From Thiosulfativibrio zosterae (GTDB lineage: Bacteria; Pseudomonadota; Gammaproteobacteria; Thiomicrospirales; Thiomicrospiraceae): a DNA stretch of 64,000 bases. Where the stretch lies: positions 1,719,501-1,783,500 of the forward strand of contig NZ_AP021888.1 of the NCBI RefSeq assembly GCF_011398155.1, in the 5' to 3' direction. Position numbers and translations under genes: made by a program. A model generated the notes under the pieces. The model did no database searches. It was not told where the DNA came from and was given only the letters and a program-made list of their open reading frames with translations. Of this stretch, positions 45,463 through 52,736 are shown one piece after another (positions within the stretch are counted from its first letter, which is position 1; each line of letters begins with the position of its first letter).

Positions 45463-46251
45463 ATGTGGCTAAAAACCCATTGTAATTTTGAGTTTACCAT
45501 TACTGGTCCAACGCCTTTAGTGCTTATGTTGCGTCCCAGAAGTGGGGAAAACCAATGGATTACGCAAGAAGAATACCTGATAGAACCCTTTACGCCAGTG
45601 GTGGAATACACCGACATCTATGGCAACCTTTGCCAAAGACTGGTTGCCCAACCTGGCAAACTATCCATTCATACCTCGGCAAAGGTTAGAGTACCCAAAG
45701 TCCTTAAGTCGGCTCCTGGTGCACCCTTTGTTGAGGTTCAAAATTTACCCGACTCGGTATTGCAATATTTACTACCCAGTCGTTACTGTGAGTCAGATCG
45801 TTTTGGCAATATGGCCGCAGAGATTACCCAAGACTATTTATTGGGCTACGATCAAGTGGCCGCCATCGAAAAATGGATTAAAAGCAACTTTCGCTATGAA
45901 CCTGGCTCTAGCATCACGCCTTTGTCTGCGATGGAGGTCAATGCCAATGATTATGCCGTTTGTCGGGATATGGCGCATTTAGGGATTGCGCTGTGTCGTG
46001 GCCTGAGTATTCCAGCCAGAATTGTGGTTGGTTTTTTACACGAACTGAAGCCTATGGATCTGCACGCCTGGTTTGAAGCCTATGTGGGTGATCAATGGTA
46101 TACCTTTGATGCTACCCAAGGCGACGCCAAAGGTGGCTATGTTGCCGTGGGATATGGCAGAGATGCTGCAGATGTGGCCATTTACAATCAATTTGGCCCA
46201 CAGACCTATCACGACGCTCAGTACATTCATGTAGAACAATTAGAGAATTAA
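45463..46251 (+). CDS. Transglutaminase-like cysteine protein
   Basis: A 262-residue protein with a papain-like transglutaminase core: Cys in DYAVCRDMAHLG, His in DLHAWFEAYV and Asp in TFDATQ, a complete triad. The N-terminal domain (about 1-140) is strand-rich and of the type found before such cores. No signal peptide, so probably cytoplasmic. Related bacterial proteins act as proteases or amide hydrolases; the substrate is unknown. It stands alone with its own short upstream region. Confidence 0.8.
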   Translation: MWLKTHCNFEFTITGPTPLVLMLRPRSGENQWITQEEYLIEPFTPVVEYTDIYGNLCQRLVAQPGKLSIHTSAKVRVPKVLKSAPGAPFVEVQNLPDSVLQYLLPSRYCESDRFGNMAAEITQDYLLGYDQVAAIEKWIKSNFRYEPGSSITPLSAMEVNANDYAVCRDMAHLGIALCRGLSIPARIVVGFLHELKPMDLHAWFEAYVGDQWYTFDATQGDAKGGYVAVGYGRDAADVAIYNQFGPQTYHDAQYIHVEQLEN

Positions 46252-46304
46252 GTCATAAATTCTTAAAAACTAAGCACATTTATCTTGTCATAGGCGTAAA
46301 CTAA

Positions 46305-46322
46305 AAGTGATACCCATCACTT
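46305..46322. promoter_or_regulatory. Inverted repeat upstream of the discoidin-like gene
   Basis: AAGTGAT-ACCC-ATCACTT, perfect 7-bp arms, ends 12 bp before the ATG, next to AAGGAA. It could be an operator or an RNA hairpin touching the ribosome site. Confidence 0.4.
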
Positions 46323-46334
46323 AAGGAAAACGCC

Positions 46335-46808
46335 ATGCGAAAAACCATTATTGCCCCATCCGCTCCAACTCATGACCAACCAGATGTTCAATGGTTAAAT
46401 GTGCCAGACATCGCACACATTGCGATTACCTCAGAAGCACCTGATTATCCCATCGAAAATGTGTTTGCTTTAACAGCAACGTCGGGTTGGCGAGCGGCCA
46501 CCTCAGGACCCCAAATATTAAACCTGACTTTTGACCAGCCACAAGATCTCAAGTGCATTTGGCTTAAATTCATAGAAACAGAGCATCAAAGAACGCAAGA
46601 GTTTCTTTTAAGTTACTCCAAAGACCAAGGGCAAATTTTTCATGAGTTAGTCAGACAACAATGGAATTTTAATCCCCAAAATGCAACTCAAGAAATTGAA
46701 AACATCCAAGTTGACTTAACTGCTGTCACGACACTTCAACTCGTCATTACCCCTGATATGAGCAACTCCCCGCTCACGGCCAGCCTTTGCGAATGGAGAA
46801 TGGCTTAA
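46335..46808 (+). CDS. Discoidin-like (F5/8 type C) small protein
   Basis: A 157-residue protein without a signal. About residues 30-155 resemble a jelly-roll discoidin domain: YPIENVFALTATSGWRA, IWLKFIETE, QEFLLSYSKDQGQ and LQLVITPDM. Such domains bind carbohydrate or other partners, but a cytoplasmic one has no clear role. AAGGAA precedes the ATG. It lies 12 bp before the first of three ATGTAA-N5-TTACAT sites. Confidence 0.6.
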   Translation: MRKTIIAPSAPTHDQPDVQWLNVPDIAHIAITSEAPDYPIENVFALTATSGWRAATSGPQILNLTFDQPQDLKCIWLKFIETEHQRTQEFLLSYSKDQGQIFHELVRQQWNFNPQNATQEIENIQVDLTAVTTLQLVITPDMSNSPLTASLCEWRMA

Positions 46809-46818
46809 CAAGCCAAAT

Positions 46819-46839
46819 AAATGTAAATTTTTTACATTT
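46819..46839. promoter_or_regulatory. Operator O1: 21-bp palindrome upstream of the cluster promoter
   Basis: A perfect 21-bp inverted repeat with AAATGTAAA and TTTACATTT arms (core ATGTAA-N5-TTACAT at 46821-46837). It ends 3 bp before a -35 box. Confidence 0.7.
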
Positions 46840-46842
46840 ATA

Positions 46843-46871
46843 TTGACATCACCACCCACAAAGCTTAATAT
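46843..46871 (+). promoter_or_regulatory. Promoter of the DUF2202 lipoprotein gene
   Basis: TTGACA, a perfect -35, lies 17 bp before TAATAT. The predicted start is near 46878, with operators on both sides. Confidence 0.65.
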
Positions 46872-46882
46872 GCACTTAACAA

Positions 46883-46899
46883 ATGTAAAAACTTTACAT
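46883..46899. promoter_or_regulatory. Operator O2 at the predicted transcription start
   Basis: ATGTAA-AAACT-TTACAT, the same core as O1 and O3. It begins 11 bp after the -10 box, a typical repressor position. Confidence 0.7.
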
Positions 46900-46925
46900 A
46901 TTTTAAGCCGATGGGAGAAATCATC

Positions 46926-48299
46926 ATGTTAAGCCAAACTTTCAAATTCAAAAAAATCACCCTAGCCATAGCACTGACCCTTCCGCTTTTAAATGGCTGT
47001 AGCGGAACCAGCGGCGCATCTTCAGCAGATACCAGCAACTTAACCACTACGGATATCACCGTAGAGCGTGGCCCAGTGCTGAATGCGGTGGTTAAAGATA
47101 AAAATGGCAAAATGGCGGTTGCGCAAGGCAACGGCGTTTATCGTTTCACAGGGGATTTCGAGTATCCGCTTGAAACCACGGGCGGAGTGATTGACTTAAA
47201 TCACAACGGTCTAGTTGATGATGGCGATCTTAAAACCGATGGTTTAAAACTTCGCGCCAATGAAGGTAAAGTTTTAACCTTAGCGAGCACCCTTGCTATA
47301 AATACAGAGTTACAACAAAAACTGATTGATAATATTGATTTAACGGCAGATGCCATTCAAACGCATACCCCAACCAATGACAAAGCCATTGCCGCCTTAA
47401 GTGACGAAATTTATAAATACTGTATTGAAAACGGCATTACCGATGCATCTACCTTAACCACAGAACAATGGGAAGCCATTGAATTAAATATTCAAAACCG
47501 CATTGCCAACTATCTTGCATCCGAAAAAACTGCAGCTGAACTTGAACAAGAAATGGTTGATGGATTAGTTGACCCATTAAATCCACCCCCATTACTTTCT
47601 CAAGCAGAAATTGATGCCATTAACAACAATGAGGGCACTCATTCTTTAGAAGCAACCCTAGCCACTTTGCCAGTCTACGACCTAACCGATGAACAAAAAG
47701 CCACGCTGGCTTTTATGTGGAATGAAGAAAAAATGGCCAAAGATCTCTATTTTTCATTAAACGATCTTTACCCAAGCCAAACGCTTTATAACATTGCCAC
47801 CAATGCAGAAACTGAGCATCAAAACTCAGTTGCAGCCTTACTGCAAAGATATAACTTGGACTTAGAATATTACACTGACCCAAGCTATTCGTTCTCTCAA
47901 GAACAGCTCGACAGTTACCCAACAGGCAGCTTTTCAAACAGTGATGTTCAAGCACTTTATAACGCACTTTACAGTGAAGGAGCGGCTTCCGCACAAGCCT
48001 CTTTAGAAGTGGGCTGTAAAGTAGAAGTAACTGACATTAATGATTTAAACACTTATATTGAAGTGGCTGGAGAAGCGCAAGATATTAAAATGGTATTCGA
48101 AAACCTTCGTAAAGGCAGCTATAGCCATTACTGGGGATTTGACACTGCCTTAAAAGCACAAGGCGTCACAGATGGTTGTTGTTCTTTGGGTGCGGACTTC
48201 TGCCATCCAGAATATCCTGCTAATGATATGCAACAACAAGGACAAGGGTCTGCTGATGGCACGGGTGAGGGCATGAGACTTCAAAAAGGCAAACATTAA
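46926..48299 (+). CDS. DUF2202 ferritin-like lipoprotein
   Basis: About 457 residues. A lipobox LNGC places the lipid-bearing Cys near residue 25. An N-terminal region has an EF-hand-like loop, DLNHNGLVDDGD. From about 240 a DUF2202 domain follows: LTDEQKATLAFMWNEEKMAKD, ATNAETEHQNSV and LRKGSYSHYWGFDTAL, whose E...ExxH and late His look like metal ligands of a four-helix bundle. The Cys-rich end has GCCSLGADFC. The ATG at 46926 has GGGAGAAA upstream. A metal-related envelope role is inferred only. Confidence 0.75.
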   Translation: MLSQTFKFKKITLAIALTLPLLNGCSGTSGASSADTSNLTTTDITVERGPVLNAVVKDKNGKMAVAQGNGVYRFTGDFEYPLETTGGVIDLNHNGLVDDGDLKTDGLKLRANEGKVLTLASTLAINTELQQKLIDNIDLTADAIQTHTPTNDKAIAALSDEIYKYCIENGITDASTLTTEQWEAIELNIQNRIANYLASEKTAAELEQEMVDGLVDPLNPPPLLSQAEIDAINNNEGTHSLEATLATLPVYDLTDEQKATLAFMWNEEKMAKDLYFSLNDLYPSQTLYNIATNAETEHQNSVAALLQRYNLDLEYYTDPSYSFSQEQLDSYPTGSFSNSDVQALYNALYSEGAASAQASLEVGCKVEVTDINDLNTYIEVAGEAQDIKMVFENLRKGSYSHYWGFDTALKAQGVTDGCCSLGADFCHPEYPANDMQQQGQGSADGTGEGMRLQKGKH

Positions 48300-48358
48300 G
48301 TCTCACATTTAGGCAAACTGAAGTCCAACTAAAAAGTGACTGATTAGCATGGTATAAA

Positions 48359-48402
48359 ACGGGTTAATTCTAACTAGGCCTGGTTAAAATTGGCCCGATT
48401 TT
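48359..48402 (+). terminator. Terminator-like stem after the DUF2202 gene with the dispersed palindrome
   Basis: CGGG pairs with CCCG around the palindrome and TTAATT/AAATT flanks, followed by ATTTTA. Confidence 0.45.
48372..48385. repeat. Dispersed palindrome, copy 11
   Basis: AACTAGGCCTGGTT, the same one-base variant as copy 7, again after a gene end. Confidence 0.85.
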
Positions 48403-48453
48403 ATGCTAAATTTCAAGTATTTAATAGACTCAAAATATATATTTTTTACCCCA

Positions 48454-48482
48454 TTGACTTGCCCAAATAGCTAATCAATACT
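48454..48482 (+). promoter_or_regulatory. Second cluster promoter
   Basis: TTGACT and AATACT are 17 bp apart, with a predicted start near 48489. Operator O3 follows directly. Confidence 0.55.
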
Positions 48483-48492
48483 ATTGGCGAAT

Positions 48493-48509
48493 ATGTAAAT
48501 TTCTTACAT
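48493..48509. promoter_or_regulatory. Operator O3 at the second promoter
   Basis: ATGTAA-ATTTC-TTACAT begins 10 bp after the -10 box, matching the placement of O2. Confidence 0.7.
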
Positions 48510-48539
48510 AGCACCCTATCCAGAAGGAAAAAATGTAAA

Positions 48540-48752
48540 ATGAGTCACACGCTTAAAGCACTTTTTGTAACCGGCTTAATTTTAACTGCAAGCACCAGCT
48601 TTGCGGCAGACGAAGAAGATACCCAAGCCAAGTTGGCCAAATTTCAACCAACTGCAGCTCAATTGCAAGCTGGTTTAGATATGGAAGAACCCGAAAAGGA
48701 TGAGTCAGCAAAAGCAGAACCTAGCAAGACTGAAACCCCCGCTGCAAAATAA
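48540..48752 (+). CDS. Small secreted acidic protein, unrecognised
   Basis: A 70-residue protein with a clear signal peptide (LKALFVTGLILTASTSFA, cut near residue 22). The mature part of about 48 residues is charged and Glu/Lys/Pro-rich without Cys. The only AAGGA is 11 bases from this ATG and closer to an overlapping ATG-TAA at 48533, which could slow initiation. It is the first gene after promoter 2 and is probably transcribed with the barrel gene. Function unknown. Confidence 0.7.
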   Translation: MSHTLKALFVTGLILTASTSFAADEEDTQAKLAKFQPTAAQLQAGLDMEEPEKDESAKAEPSKTETPAAK

Positions 48753-48793
48753 GGGGATTAAGGTCTTTAGGTTCTTCTCCTAAAGGCCTTAAA

Positions 48794-49528
48794 ATGACAA
48801 AACACAACACATCATTTTGGATTTTTTTAGTAGCAGGTGTTTACGCATCTGCCACTTTTTCAGACGACACGGCGATTTCAACGCAAATCACCAGCGGTTT
48901 TTTTATTAGCCAAGGCCAAAGTCAAACCTTAGGCAGCCCGAATTCAACAACCTATTCAATCCCTTTAATGATTTCCAGCCGCTCAGGTCGATTTCAAGGG
49001 GCGCTTATTACCAATTATTTGCAAGTCAACAATGATTACCCCACCGTCAACCTAACCAATCAGCAACAAGGCATGGGCGATACCATTTTATCTGTGGGTT
49101 ATGATCTTCTTGAACAACCTTGGATAACGCTTAAACTCAAACATAAATTTGCCACAGGTGATAAAAATAAAGGCCTAAGCACCGGAAAAGACGATACTGC
49201 TTTGCAGTTAGACTGGTTAAACCAATTTCAACCCAATACCGCAGGCTATGCAACCCTGGGGTACAAGTGGGTTGGTCAAGTGAATGAATATGCCATGCAA
49301 AATAGTGGCTATGCCACAGCAGGTTTACTCCAGCGTTTAACCCCTCATAATCATTTAGGGGTTTCCTTGGACTACACTCAAACCAGCTATACCGAACTTA
49401 AAGATGCCCTAGGGGCAAGTTTATTTTTAAGTCATCAACTGAATACATCGATGACTTTAACCAGCCTTTCCAGTTATGACTCAACCTCTAGCAGCAATTT
49501 TGGTTTAACAATTACAAAACAATTTTAA
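48794..49528 (+). CDS. Outer-membrane beta-barrel-like protein
   Basis: A 244-residue exported protein. After a signal (about 1-23) the sequence shows alternating hydrophobic strands and turns, such as TLKLKHKFATGD and NSGYATAGLLQRL, and ends GLTITKQF, the C-terminal Phe being the outer-membrane insertion signature. About eight to ten strands are expected. It could be a small transporter or structural porin-like protein. It is the second gene after promoter 2 and lies 10 bp before the DUF6502 gene. Confidence 0.68.
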   Translation: MTKHNTSFWIFLVAGVYASATFSDDTAISTQITSGFFISQGQSQTLGSPNSTTYSIPLMISSRSGRFQGALITNYLQVNNDYPTVNLTNQQQGMGDTILSVGYDLLEQPWITLKLKHKFATGDKNKGLSTGKDDTALQLDWLNQFQPNTAGYATLGYKWVGQVNEYAMQNSGYATAGLLQRLTPHNHLGVSLDYTQTSYTELKDALGASLFLSHQLNTSMTLTSLSSYDSTSSSNFGLTITKQF

Positions 49529-49537
49529 GAGCCACCT

Positions 49538-50404
49538 ATGCCCATTGAAGAAGAATTAAGCTTAAAAGACAAAGCCCTAACCAAAGCATTAAAAACCATG
49601 CTTAAGCCCTTAGTGCGCTTGCTGATTCAGCAAAATATCACTTTTATTGGCCTACAAAATTTGCTCAAACGCACCTTTGTTGAAGTGGCAGATGAATCTT
49701 TTTGTTTAGAAAATAAAAAACAAACTGACAGCCGTGTCAGTTTATTAACGGGTATTCACCGTGCAGATGTTAAACGCATTCGCAACGAAGACCCAACCCA
49801 ACTCTCCGAAAAGGAAATCAAAGCCAGTTTAAGCGCACAAATTATTTCAGTATGGACGGGTAATACCCAATATCTCGACGAACAAAATCGCCCAAAACCC
49901 TTGTTAAGAACCAGCCAAGCCAATGCCAATCAGAAAAGTTTTGAAGAGTTAGTGCTGTCCATTTCCAAGGATAAACACCCCCGCTCTATTGTGGATGACT
50001 GGCTTAATCAGGGGATTATAGAACTTAAAACCGAAGGCGAAACCGAATGGGTTCTGCTCACCGAAAAAGGTTATGTACCAGAAGCTGACTTTGAAGAAAA
50101 GTTGTTTTTTGCTGGCAAAAATATTGGCGAACATTTGCATGTGGTGGCCAGCAATTTAGAAGGTCAAGCGGCACCCCTATTTGACCGAGCTGTTTATTAT
50201 GAAGGGCTGTCAGCAGAAGCCATTTTAGAATTGGAAACACTCGCCAAACAAAAAATTTTACAAGTCATGGTCGAAGTAAACCAGCGCGCCAACCTTTTAC
50301 AATCACAGCAAAAAGGCATGCCTGAGCCTTGTCAAAGTTTTCATTTTGGCGCTTATTTCAGCAAAACCACGCCCATCAGCCAAACGCAAACAGAGGAAAA
50401 ATCA
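49538..50404 (+). CDS. DUF6502 family protein
   Basis: A 289-residue soluble protein (stop TGA ends at 50407). It begins with a helical segment (LTKALKTMLKPLVRLLIQQN) resembling a small helix-turn-helix-like or regulatory module, followed by a Lys/Arg-rich region that includes VSLLTGIHRADVKRIRNED. I recall this family as uncharacterised and found next to DUF5666 genes; that is memory, not a search. It might be the DNA-binding regulator of the nearby ATGTAA sites. Its TGA overlaps the ATG of the next gene. Confidence 0.6.
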
Positions 50405-51441
50405 TGATGAGCTTTTCTCTGTTCAACAAGCGCTCCTACCTTTTTATCCTAAGTATTTTAAGTTTGTTTGCACTGCTTTCGGCTTGCCAAATACAACCTA
50501 CTCAAACCGCTAACACCTCTGGGTTTGGTGGCACCGGTTCGCCCATGATTGCCTTGCAAGATTCCATGAGCGGATTTGGCGGCACAGGTAAAACCTCGTC
50601 TGGGTTTGGTGGTACGGGTATCGTGGGCACCATTCAAGCATTTGGCAGTATTTGGGTGAATGGGATTGAAATTGGTTACGGCGAAAAAACCCAAATTGAG
50701 TCTAACTTAATGCGCCATGACACCTTAAAACTGGGACAACAAGTTCACTTAGAAACCTTGCCACTAGAAGACAAAACCCTCACCGGGCAAATTCATGTTT
50801 TTTACCCGATTGCAGGAGAGATTACCCAAATTGACGAACAAAACCTAACGATTAATCATCAGTTTATCGTGACCCGTGATGATGCCACCTATTACGATGA
50901 CAATCTAACCCTTCAGGTTGGAGAATTTGTGGCCATCAATGGTTATCAAAATGCCGAGCAAACTTGGATGGCAACCCGCATTAATGCTAACCCAGACCAT
51001 AAAACTTTTTACCAACCAGAACCTACGCTCAACTTTTCAAGTTCGGTGAAACAAATGGTGATTGAACAGCGCTTAATCAACTTTAAACCCTGGGAATCCT
51101 TGCAAAGACTTCAAGCCGTTCCGCTCAAACAAAATCATTTTGACAGCAAAATTTTGAGCAATGAACCCTTAGAAAATAAAGCGCATCCTGAACAGCCCAT
51201 GCAAATCATGCAGCCTTTAAATCCACCAAAAACGGAAACTATGGCAAAACCAGAAATGCCACTGCAGCTTTTACAACAACAGAAAAGTTTAATGGATGTT
51301 CCTCGCGAACAGCGAGATTTAATGCAGTTGCAAAGAGATTTGCAAACCCAGCAACAAGGGCTTCGTGAGCAACAGCAAGGATTACAAAACTTAAAACCCT
51401 TGATGCAACTCAATAACCTCAGACCGCAAAGCCATCCCTAA
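50404..51441 (+). CDS. DUF5666 lipoprotein with SGFGGTG repeats
   Basis: About 345 residues. Signal with lipobox LLSAC (Cys near residue 28), then three copies of SGFGGTG (about 37-66), then two DUF5666-like small beta domains: FGSIWVNGIEIGYGEK region and GEITQIDEQNLTINHQF region, together about 75-190. The C-terminal third is Gln-rich and helical (QQQKSLMDVPREQRDLMQLQ), ending in near repeats. The ATG overlaps the previous stop (ATGA). Probably an outer-membrane or periplasmic lipoprotein; no function known. Confidence 0.7.
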   Translation: MMSFSLFNKRSYLFILSILSLFALLSACQIQPTQTANTSGFGGTGSPMIALQDSMSGFGGTGKTSSGFGGTGIVGTIQAFGSIWVNGIEIGYGEKTQIESNLMRHDTLKLGQQVHLETLPLEDKTLTGQIHVFYPIAGEITQIDEQNLTINHQFIVTRDDATYYDDNLTLQVGEFVAINGYQNAEQTWMATRINANPDHKTFYQPEPTLNFSSSVKQMVIEQRLINFKPWESLQRLQAVPLKQNHFDSKILSNEPLENKAHPEQPMQIMQPLNPPKTETMAKPEMPLQLLQQQKSLMDVPREQRDLMQLQRDLQTQQQGLREQQQGLQNLKPLMQLNNLRPQSHP

Positions 51442-51493
51442 AAGTGCCTATCTAGGCAAAAGAAATAGGCAATATAAAATATCACTTTTTAAT
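51438..51493. terminator. Convergent terminator region after the cluster
   Basis: AAAGTG (51441-51446) pairs with CACTTT (51483-51488), and TGCCTAT pairs with ATAGGCA inside. T runs exist on both strands. Confidence 0.5.
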
Positions 51494-51824
51494 CTTCAGA
51501 AAAACACATACTGTAGGGACGAGCCATGTCTTGTGCCACTTTTTGCAGACTAAAGGTGCGCACTTCTTCAAAAAACTTTTGGCCTGTAAAATAGACCTGC
51601 AAAGTTGGTAAACTCAACACGCCGTTTTGAGCACAAATATCCGTAGTGACATGGCAATCGACATAAGCCAAGGTCATTTTAGGGTAATGTTCCGCCATTA
51701 AATCAATCAACTTGGGTTTAATGACATGACATACATTACACTCTTTACCCCCAAACAACACCACCAAGCCGTCTTCAGTGGCTTTTAGGCTGTCTAATTC
51801 AGCAAAACTTTCTAAGGTTTTCAT
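51489..51824 (-). CDS. Thioredoxin-like protein with CNVC motif
   Basis: A 111-residue thioredoxin-fold protein without a signal. The active site is KECNVCHVI (CxxC), with the cis-Pro in VLSLPTLQVY. It may reduce disulfides or deliver electrons in the cytoplasm. The start at 51824 has GGAG six bases upstream. It is the last of four co-directional genes after mak. Confidence 0.82.
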   Translation of the reverse strand: MKTLESFAELDSLKATEDGLVVLFGGKECNVCHVIKPKLIDLMAEHYPKMTLAYVDCHVTTDICAQNGVLSLPTLQVYFTGQKFFEEVRTFSLQKVAQDMARPYSMCFSED

Positions 51825-51848
51825 TGATTCTCCATTCACTCACATTGA

Positions 51849-52736
51849 TTACAACCAAGCCGCTCCACGTACGCCACTGGAATCGCCCCATTTAGGCGGT
51901 TTTAAAACCGTTTCTACCACATCACTAAAAACCCACGCCTGCCAAAGCTCCGGCACGCGTTGATACAAATAATCAATATTCGACATTCCACCGCCTAATA
52001 CGATGATATCTGGATCCACAATATTAATCACCGACGCTAAGCCTTTGGCTAACCAAACACAATAATTTTCTAAATGCTGTTGCGCAGTCGCATCGCCCTT
52101 TTGCGCCAATGCCACAATTTGCTGGGCACTCAAGGCTTGATGGGTTTTGTGGTGATAATGCGCCTGAAACCCCGAACCAGACAAAAAGGTTTCGGTGCAG
52201 CCTTGCAAACCACAGTAACAAGGCATCGCCACATCTTGCTGCGTTTGCCAGGGCAAAGGGTTATGTCCCCATTCGCCGCCTATGGCGTTAATGCCATTCA
52301 AAATTTTGCCGTTGACCACCAAACCGCCACCGCAACCCGTGCCAATAATCACACCAAAAACCACCTCTGCCCCTGCCGCAGCACCATCGCTGGCTTCAGA
52401 CAAAGCAAAACAATTTGCATCATTGGCGAGTTTGACTGGCGAACTTAACTGACTTTGTATATCACCTTGTAAATCTTGACCTATCAACCAGGTAGAATTG
52501 GCATTCTTAATCAAACCTGTTTTTTTAGAAACAGCACCTGGAATACCGATGCCAATTGAGCGCGCGGTTTGTTGAGTCGCCTGCTCTGCTTGTTTGACCA
52601 AATCAATCAGGGCTGCAAGCGTTTTTGCATAATCCCCTTTAGGGGTATCCATACGCTGCTTAAAAATAACCGCACCCTTTTCATCCAGCGCCACTGCTTC
52701 AATTTTAGTGCCGCCTAAATCTATGCCGATACGCAT
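51849..52736 (-). CDS. mak: ROK-family fructokinase (Mak type)
   Basis: A 295-residue sugar kinase. N-terminal phosphate loop IDLGGTKIEAVAL, KNANSTWLIGQ, EWGHNPLPW, the zinc motif CYCGLQGCTE and the end GDSSGVRGAAWL follow Escherichia coli Mak closely. It phosphorylates fructose or other hexoses. It lies 16 bp after a methyltransferase gene. NagK is the main alternative. Confidence 0.85.
   Translation of the reverse strand: MRIGIDLGGTKIEAVALDEKGAVIFKQRMDTPKGDYAKTLAALIDLVKQAEQATQQTARSIGIGIPGAVSKKTGLIKNANSTWLIGQDLQGDIQSQLSSPVKLANDANCFALSEASDGAAAGAEVVFGVIIGTGCGGGLVVNGKILNGINAIGGEWGHNPLPWQTQQDVAMPCYCGLQGCTETFLSGSGFQAHYHHKTHQALSAQQIVALAQKGDATAQQHLENYCVWLAKGLASVINIVDPDIIVLGGGMSNIDYLYQRVPELWQAWVFSDVVETVLKPPKWGDSSGVRGAAWL

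Follow-up and report, generated by a model that had tools for sequence, protein, structure and literature searches.

Among the closest described systems to the one treated here are winged-helix one-component regulators (MarR, LmrR/PadR, TubR, and HetR), with palindromic operators over the promoter and an autoregulated layout. These features, including a predicted winged helix at residues of about 91-180, are shared by DUF6502, a protein encoded in a five-gene cluster within a 64,000-nucleotide stretch of the Thiosulfativibrio zosterae genome (contig NZ_AP021888.1, positions 1,719,501 to 1,783,500; referred to as the window). On the other hand, DUF6502 has no sequence match to those regulators, has an operator family of its own, and adds an N-terminal helix-turn-helix-like segment and a C-terminal region. 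We propose, with a probability of roughly 0.7, that DUF6502 acts in the cytoplasm as a transcription regulator of the winged-helix kind, recognizing a 17-bp palindrome and governing the operon from which it is expressed, probably as a repressor; both the DNA binding and the repression are what we infer from operators that keep a conserved place around the promoter and track DUF6502. Most likely, it regulates a small envelope regulon, the most constant member of which is the DUF5666 lipoprotein encoded directly downstream.

The palindrome ATGTAA-N5-TTACAT occurs in exact form four times in the 2.65-Mb genome, against none for the reversed pattern used as a control. Three sites are in the cluster: O1 and O2 precede the DUF2202 gene, and O3 precedes the gene for a small secreted peptide (Table 1). 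The fourth, at genome position 2627604, is upstream of a gene for a secreted Gly-rich protein of 95 amino acids (L005). The claim of an earlier, preliminary description of this DNA, that shared operators tie the parts of the cluster together, therefore holds, and operator pairs are also kept in relatives. Of the 11 loci with a tandem ATGTAA-type pair, 10 have their best sigma70-like promoter starting 22-24 nt downstream of the first operator (0.9% with shuffled flanks); the two operators then span about -60 to -41 and about -2 to +24, respectively. Since the operators surround the promoter at a fixed place, they suit a promoter-covering repressor. A promoter scan of the window alone was not above chance: 10 found and 10.2 expected. 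The simplest alternative, chance neighbours with AT-rich chance palindromes, draws on a loose search of the genome (3 mismatches over 21 bp), in which the number of sites was hardly above the control: 27 and 23, respectively; only exact or near-exact sites were therefore counted. However, the exact sites (4 vs 0), the gene order and operator pairs kept in relatives, and the fixed promoter geometry make this explanation extremely improbable.

Since one operator would lie just upstream of the -35 box and the other over the predicted transcription start, a bound DUF6502 dimer would block RNA polymerase until released by a signal. Release would then allow an envelope protein set to be made, with the DUF5666 surface lipoprotein as the most constant partner; in this lineage, the further products would be the ferritin-like DUF2202 lipoprotein, the small secreted peptide, and a 12-strand outer-membrane channel, and the Gly-rich secreted protein would be co-produced from its distant locus. 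This output might perhaps handle metal or a related surface stress.

DUF6502 is present in 27 of 57 relatives, and an ATGTAA site was found in 12 of the 57, all of them DUF6502-positive (Fisher p 2.5e-5). The sites in these relatives numbered 23 (control, 9), 18 of which belong to the cluster or accompany genes for secreted proteins, either DUF2202 (L044 and L236) or Gly/Gln-rich (L005, L053, and L054); the remaining five (L043, L052, L057, and two in L058/L237) have no explained target. Among eight regulon proteins searched against Pfam, that of L044 was a clear DUF2202 (198.6 bits), and the seven secreted peptides or Gly-rich proteins had no credible family. The Gly-rich 95-residue protein with its own operator (L005 1136-1420) resembles the L053 and L054 proteins in style. 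In G028, two ATGTAA-N5-TTACAT sites are 36 bp apart with no obvious target gene (L237 1513-1565, the same as L058).

Palindromes of other classes but the same build also follow DUF6502, in loci that lack the ATGTAA site. When all palindromes with 6-bp arms upstream of DUF6502 were counted in 116 loci (five duplicate loci dropped), RTGNNA arms with a spacer of 5 were found 11 times (0.2 in shuffles), and TTGGGA-N6-TCCCAA gave 16 sites in 15 loci. ATGGGA-N5-TCCCAT was found at 10 sites in the 57 genomes (reversed pattern, 3), eight of them just upstream of DUF6502, including one divergent member (G042); none was found in the genome of the window. Across the sampled class genomes, TTGGGA-N6-TCCCAA occurred in 36 of 99 with DUF6502 and in 25 of 270 without it (p 5e-9). 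Among the matches listed, this site adjoined DUF6502 or DUF5666 in 15 of 18 loci from DUF6502-positive genomes and in 1 of 12 from the others (p 9e-5). Distant TTGGGA sites precede further DUF5666 genes in L193, L203, L204, L208, L209, and L217, and therefore point to a regulon. Two genomes have two DUF6502 paralogues each: in G024, L061 is beside a one-mismatch TTGGGA site and L073 beside an ATGTAA-type site, and in G017, L065 is beside TTGGGA and L068/L011 behind an ATGGGA-like pair. A TTGGGA palindrome also stands before a small secreted glycine-zipper-like protein in three genomes of one genus (L224 1532-1885, L225 1585-1938, and L210 1101-1445), which is a possible further regulon member, and before related lipoprotein genes in L229 (about 1524; G350) and L230 (about 1483; G135). 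The MraZ box has GTGGGA-like half-sites with 5-bp spacing, and some DUF6502 loci have half-sites of this kind at the same spacing; the DUF6502 half-sites, however, form inverted repeats, for which reason identity with the MraZ box was rejected. The clade of the window uses ATGTAA.

These palindromes might instead be bound by another regulator, such as a linked response regulator; DUF6502 would then merely assist the envelope proteins from the cytoplasm, as a partner or co-factor. Such an arrangement would suit L011 and L013, in which the operon headed by the operator pair also encodes a response regulator and a sensor kinase, and the g5 loci, in which sites between divergent units could be used by any local regulator. 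However, no other regulator gene emerged as a convincing regular neighbour of DUF6502 when the neighbours in the 116 loci were clustered, the ATGGGA sites are almost exclusively beside DUF6502 (8/10), the operator type goes with the DUF6502 paralogue within one genome, and DUF6502 itself is modelled as a winged helix. We consider this alternative unlikely.

In the AlphaFold2 model, DUF6502 residues of about 91-180 form the predicted winged helix, with block means of the predicted local distance difference test (pLDDT) of 60-90, most of them 74-90. The fold matches in PDB were largely winged-helix proteins, many of which are DNA binders (TubR, HetR, MarR, and LmrR). When 30 DUF6502 members were searched against Pfam, PF20112 was the only family matching more than one member, and helix-turn-helix matches were single and weak. 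Alignment columns were compared between 13 ATGTAA-type DUF6502 sequences and 27 others: nine of the N5 type (ATGGGA, GTGGGA, one GTGTGA, and the mixed sites of L011/L013) and 18 of the N6 type. L179, the site of which is inside the reading frame, was left out, and L007 was classed as ATGTAA-type because its genome carries the corresponding half of the cluster on a different contig (L050). The ATGTAA class was distinguished from all others at two columns only, 140 and 146, and both fall within the winged-helix domain. The N6 type was set apart by 17 columns spread along the protein, as descent alone would give. The residue classes gave a prediction, fixed beforehand, of ATGGGA-type sites in L011-L013; such sites were found in L011 and L013 (each pair with a mismatch).

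We also think it likely, if with slightly less confidence than for the autoregulator itself, that DUF6502 defines a hitherto undescribed family of one-component DNA-binding regulators, in which TTGGGA-N6, ATGGGA-N5, and ATGTAA-N5 operators would control DUF5666 lipoproteins together with lineage-specific envelope modules, the preference having been switched in this clade via positions 140 and 146. The DUF6502 family is found in about a quarter of the sampled class genomes (99/369), and neither DUF6502 nor DUF5666 carries a function in Pfam; with a concrete operator and regulon, and two residues as candidates for specificity, these two families of unassigned function become testable. Our search of open papers found none naming DUF6502, PF20112, or DUF2202, and a search on MJ0754 and ferritin-like/DUF2202 found no paper. 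DUF5666 is named in four papers, two of which mention such a protein only in passing (PMC10714799, PMC12894976).

Several results weigh against DUF6502 as the operator-binding protein. The model of the whole protein is poor (mean pLDDT, 56.8; built from 9 sequences); Foldseek with this model gave no match at E<=0.001; and the VIA Z values were 7.6 at most, where those under 8 may mean only a common arrangement. A DUF6502 profile (30 sequences) found no credible relative among PDB sequences. A recognizable site was found at only 40 of the 116 DUF6502 loci, with none found at the other 76, and the N6 class was built from loci selected for having the site. When later-added remote sites, which were picked away from DUF6502, were included, the TTGGGA site was beside DUF6502 or DUF5666 in 16 of 33 loci from DUF6502-positive genomes vs 1 of 27 from the others among the matches listed (p 1e-4). 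The ATGTAA class is one clade, so that the link between columns and operator counts as one event confounded with descent. Moreover, the ATGGGA-type site predicted for L012 was not found, no predicted ATGTAA-type site was found at L084, L085, and L089 although they carry the ATGTAA-class K146, and L071 was without its expected operator site.

Regarding the cluster as a whole, the preliminary description named five genes in a row, and gene calls, Pfam, and the barrel model bear out both the row and the families. The window proteins exceeded the curated Pfam cut-offs for DUF2202 (PF09968; 90.4 bits, cut-off 22), DUF6502 (PF20112; 95.1 bits, cut-off 27), and DUF5666 (PF18914; 56.4 bits over two stretches, cut-off 27). 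The barrel matched DUF3187 below threshold and no other Pfam family, and the 70-residue peptide had no Pfam match. No credible match of the DUF5666 protein was found among PDB sequences, and an Rfam search of 46000-52000 gave no match. By eye, a lipobox is found in DUF2202 (LLNGC) and DUF5666 (LLSAC), and a cleavable signal peptide in each of the peptide and the barrel; four of the five products are thus exported, in line with the earlier count of at least four exported or lipid-anchored, and the overlap reported for the last two genes was confirmed (4 bases, ATGA). What did not stand is the idea of a five-part envelope machine: the set is real and conserved, but DUF6502 has no export signal when its sequence is read by eye, and is therefore the sole cytoplasmic product of the five and looks regulatory. 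The intergenic gaps are 240 bp after DUF2202, followed by 41, 9, and -4 bp. Because the 240-bp gap has its own operator and promoter-like site, the layout suggests that DUF2202 is transcribed by itself and peptide-barrel-DUF6502-DUF5666 as a second unit. In the genome (a single contig of 2,645,427 bases), DUF6502, DUF5666, and DUF2202 are each encoded by a single gene, which lies in this cluster.

Table 1. Genes, operators, and promoter-like sites of the DUF6502 cluster (positions in the window).
Feature	Positions	Strand	Basis or remark
Operator O1, ATGTAA-N5-TTACAT (extended AAATGTAA..TTACATTT)	46821..46837	.	About -58..-42 of promoter-like site
Sigma70-like promoter TTGACA-N17-TAATAT, between O1 and O2	46843..46871	+	Position kept in 10/11 loci
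Operator O2, ATGTAA-N5-TTACAT	46883..46899	.	About +4..+20
DUF2202 ferritin-like lipoprotein	46926..48299	+	Pfam, 90.4 bits; PDB MJ0754, E 8.5e-18; lipobox by eye
Promoter-like site TTGACT-N17-AATACT, 5' of peptide gene	48454..48482	+	Promoter scan
Operator O3, ATGTAA-N5-TTACAT	48493..48509	.	About +3..+19
70-residue secreted peptide	48540..48752	+	No Pfam match; Gln/Met-rich peptides hold same position in relatives
12-strand outer-membrane barrel	48794..49528	+	AlphaFold2 model, fold matches
DUF6502, cytoplasmic, predicted winged-helix DNA-binding autoregulator	49538..50407	+	Pfam, AlphaFold2 model, column comparison, operator searches
SGFGGTG-repeat DUF5666 lipoprotein, Gln-rich tail	50404..51441	+	Pfam

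The named relatives of the DUF6502 protein of the window were Thiomicrorhabdus, Piscirickettsiaceae, and Thiotrichales records. The preliminary description had made its proposal depend on these genes being neighbours in other genomes, and they adjoin elsewhere: DUF5666 directly follows DUF6502 in 55 of 80 class-wide loci (the best-ranked matches with enough contig around them), often with an overlap of exactly 4 bp, and the barrel family is near DUF6502 in 19 of the 116 loci compared by neighbour clustering. DUF6502-DUF5666 is therefore the recurring core, to which particular lineages have added DUF2202, the small peptide, and the barrel. The order DUF2202-barrel-DUF6502-DUF5666 is found in L006 and L077, and DUF2202-DUF6502-DUF5666 in L079; a Gln/Met-rich secreted peptide precedes barrel-DUF6502-DUF5666 in L008, L009, L070, L072, and L083, as does a short peptide in L010. 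The barrel and peptide are divergent from DUF6502-DUF5666 in L086 and L088, and a divergent barrel is also found in L071, L075, and L082. In the clustering, the only convincingly recurring neighbours were DUF5666, the barrel, Gln/Met-rich peptides, and DUF2202. A further group of eight loci was rejected as a constant partner because it looks like an antisense reading-frame artefact. In L084, L085, and L089, DUF6502 is without DUF5666 and adjoins a conserved small gene (174-177 amino acids).

The AlphaFold2 model of the barrel (mean pLDDT, 77.8) has 12 strands, the first starting from residue 28, just past the signal peptide. Its best fold matches were FapF, an amyloid exporter (Foldseek E 2.1e-9; VIA Z 20.0 over 208 residues with a root-mean-square deviation of 3.2), and other 12-strand barrels near in VIA Z: the COG4313 channel (18.9), NalP (18.4), and KdgM (17.5). 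The set might serve mainly to export low-complexity proteins, Gln/Met-rich or Gly/Gln-rich, via the barrel for assembly into a fibre or matrix at the surface, with a function comparable to that of Pseudomonas Fap. Together with FapF as the top match, the Gln/Met-rich secreted peptides adjoining the barrel in relatives and the operator common to Gly/Gln-rich secreted proteins are consistent with this idea. However, the other 12-strand barrels score close to FapF, and the identity to FapF and the COG4313 channel is about 12%. FapF has an N-terminal trimeric coiled coil before its barrel (PMC5557850), whereas the modelled window barrel has none. No fapABCDE-like product was found among the nine window proteins scanned, the peptide of the window shows no striking Gln enrichment, and L006/L077 leave no space for a peptide gene. 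A Fap-like role is doubtful.

A second possibility, compatible with DUF6502 as the autoregulator since it names only the output, is that the set is a copper/zinc-type metal-handling envelope system. A described DUF2202 ferritin-like protein is MJ0754 (PDB 3q4n/3q4o); the window DUF2202 shares with it the PF09968 match and, in an alignment read by eye, the E/ExxH/E/E..H ligand positions, but is a lipoprotein with about 220 residues N-terminal of the domain and is under the shared operators. In L011-L013, an operon of the CusCBA/CzcCBA metal-efflux kind, which includes a two-component system and a CusA/CzcA-family pump, ends with DUF6502-DUF5666, and in L011 and L013 operators stand at its start; the pump was checked in L011 only (TIGR00914; 1029 bits, cut-off 701). 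The secreted peptides in 10 loci of relatives contain 5-13% Met. On the other hand, no such arrangement is present in the window or most loci, the pump is at this place in one group of three species only, RND (resistance-nodulation-division)-type pumps of any kind are near 6 of the 116 loci, and no Cys sensor motif was seen by eye in the window DUF6502. The proposal thus stays tentative, and a metal-related role is our best guess for the envelope set because of the DUF2202 ligand positions and the L011-L013 pump operon. Metal or redox sensing at the cell surface, suggested in the preliminary description, is only weakly hinted at by the same two features. In L011 (1292-1347) and L013 (918-975), tandem ATGGGA-like palindromes head an operon encoding a response regulator, kinase, outer membrane factor (OMF), membrane fusion protein (MFP), CusA/CzcA, a protein that we take to be DUF3240-like from the look of its sequence (NCBIfam gave no match), DUF6502, and DUF5666, in this order.

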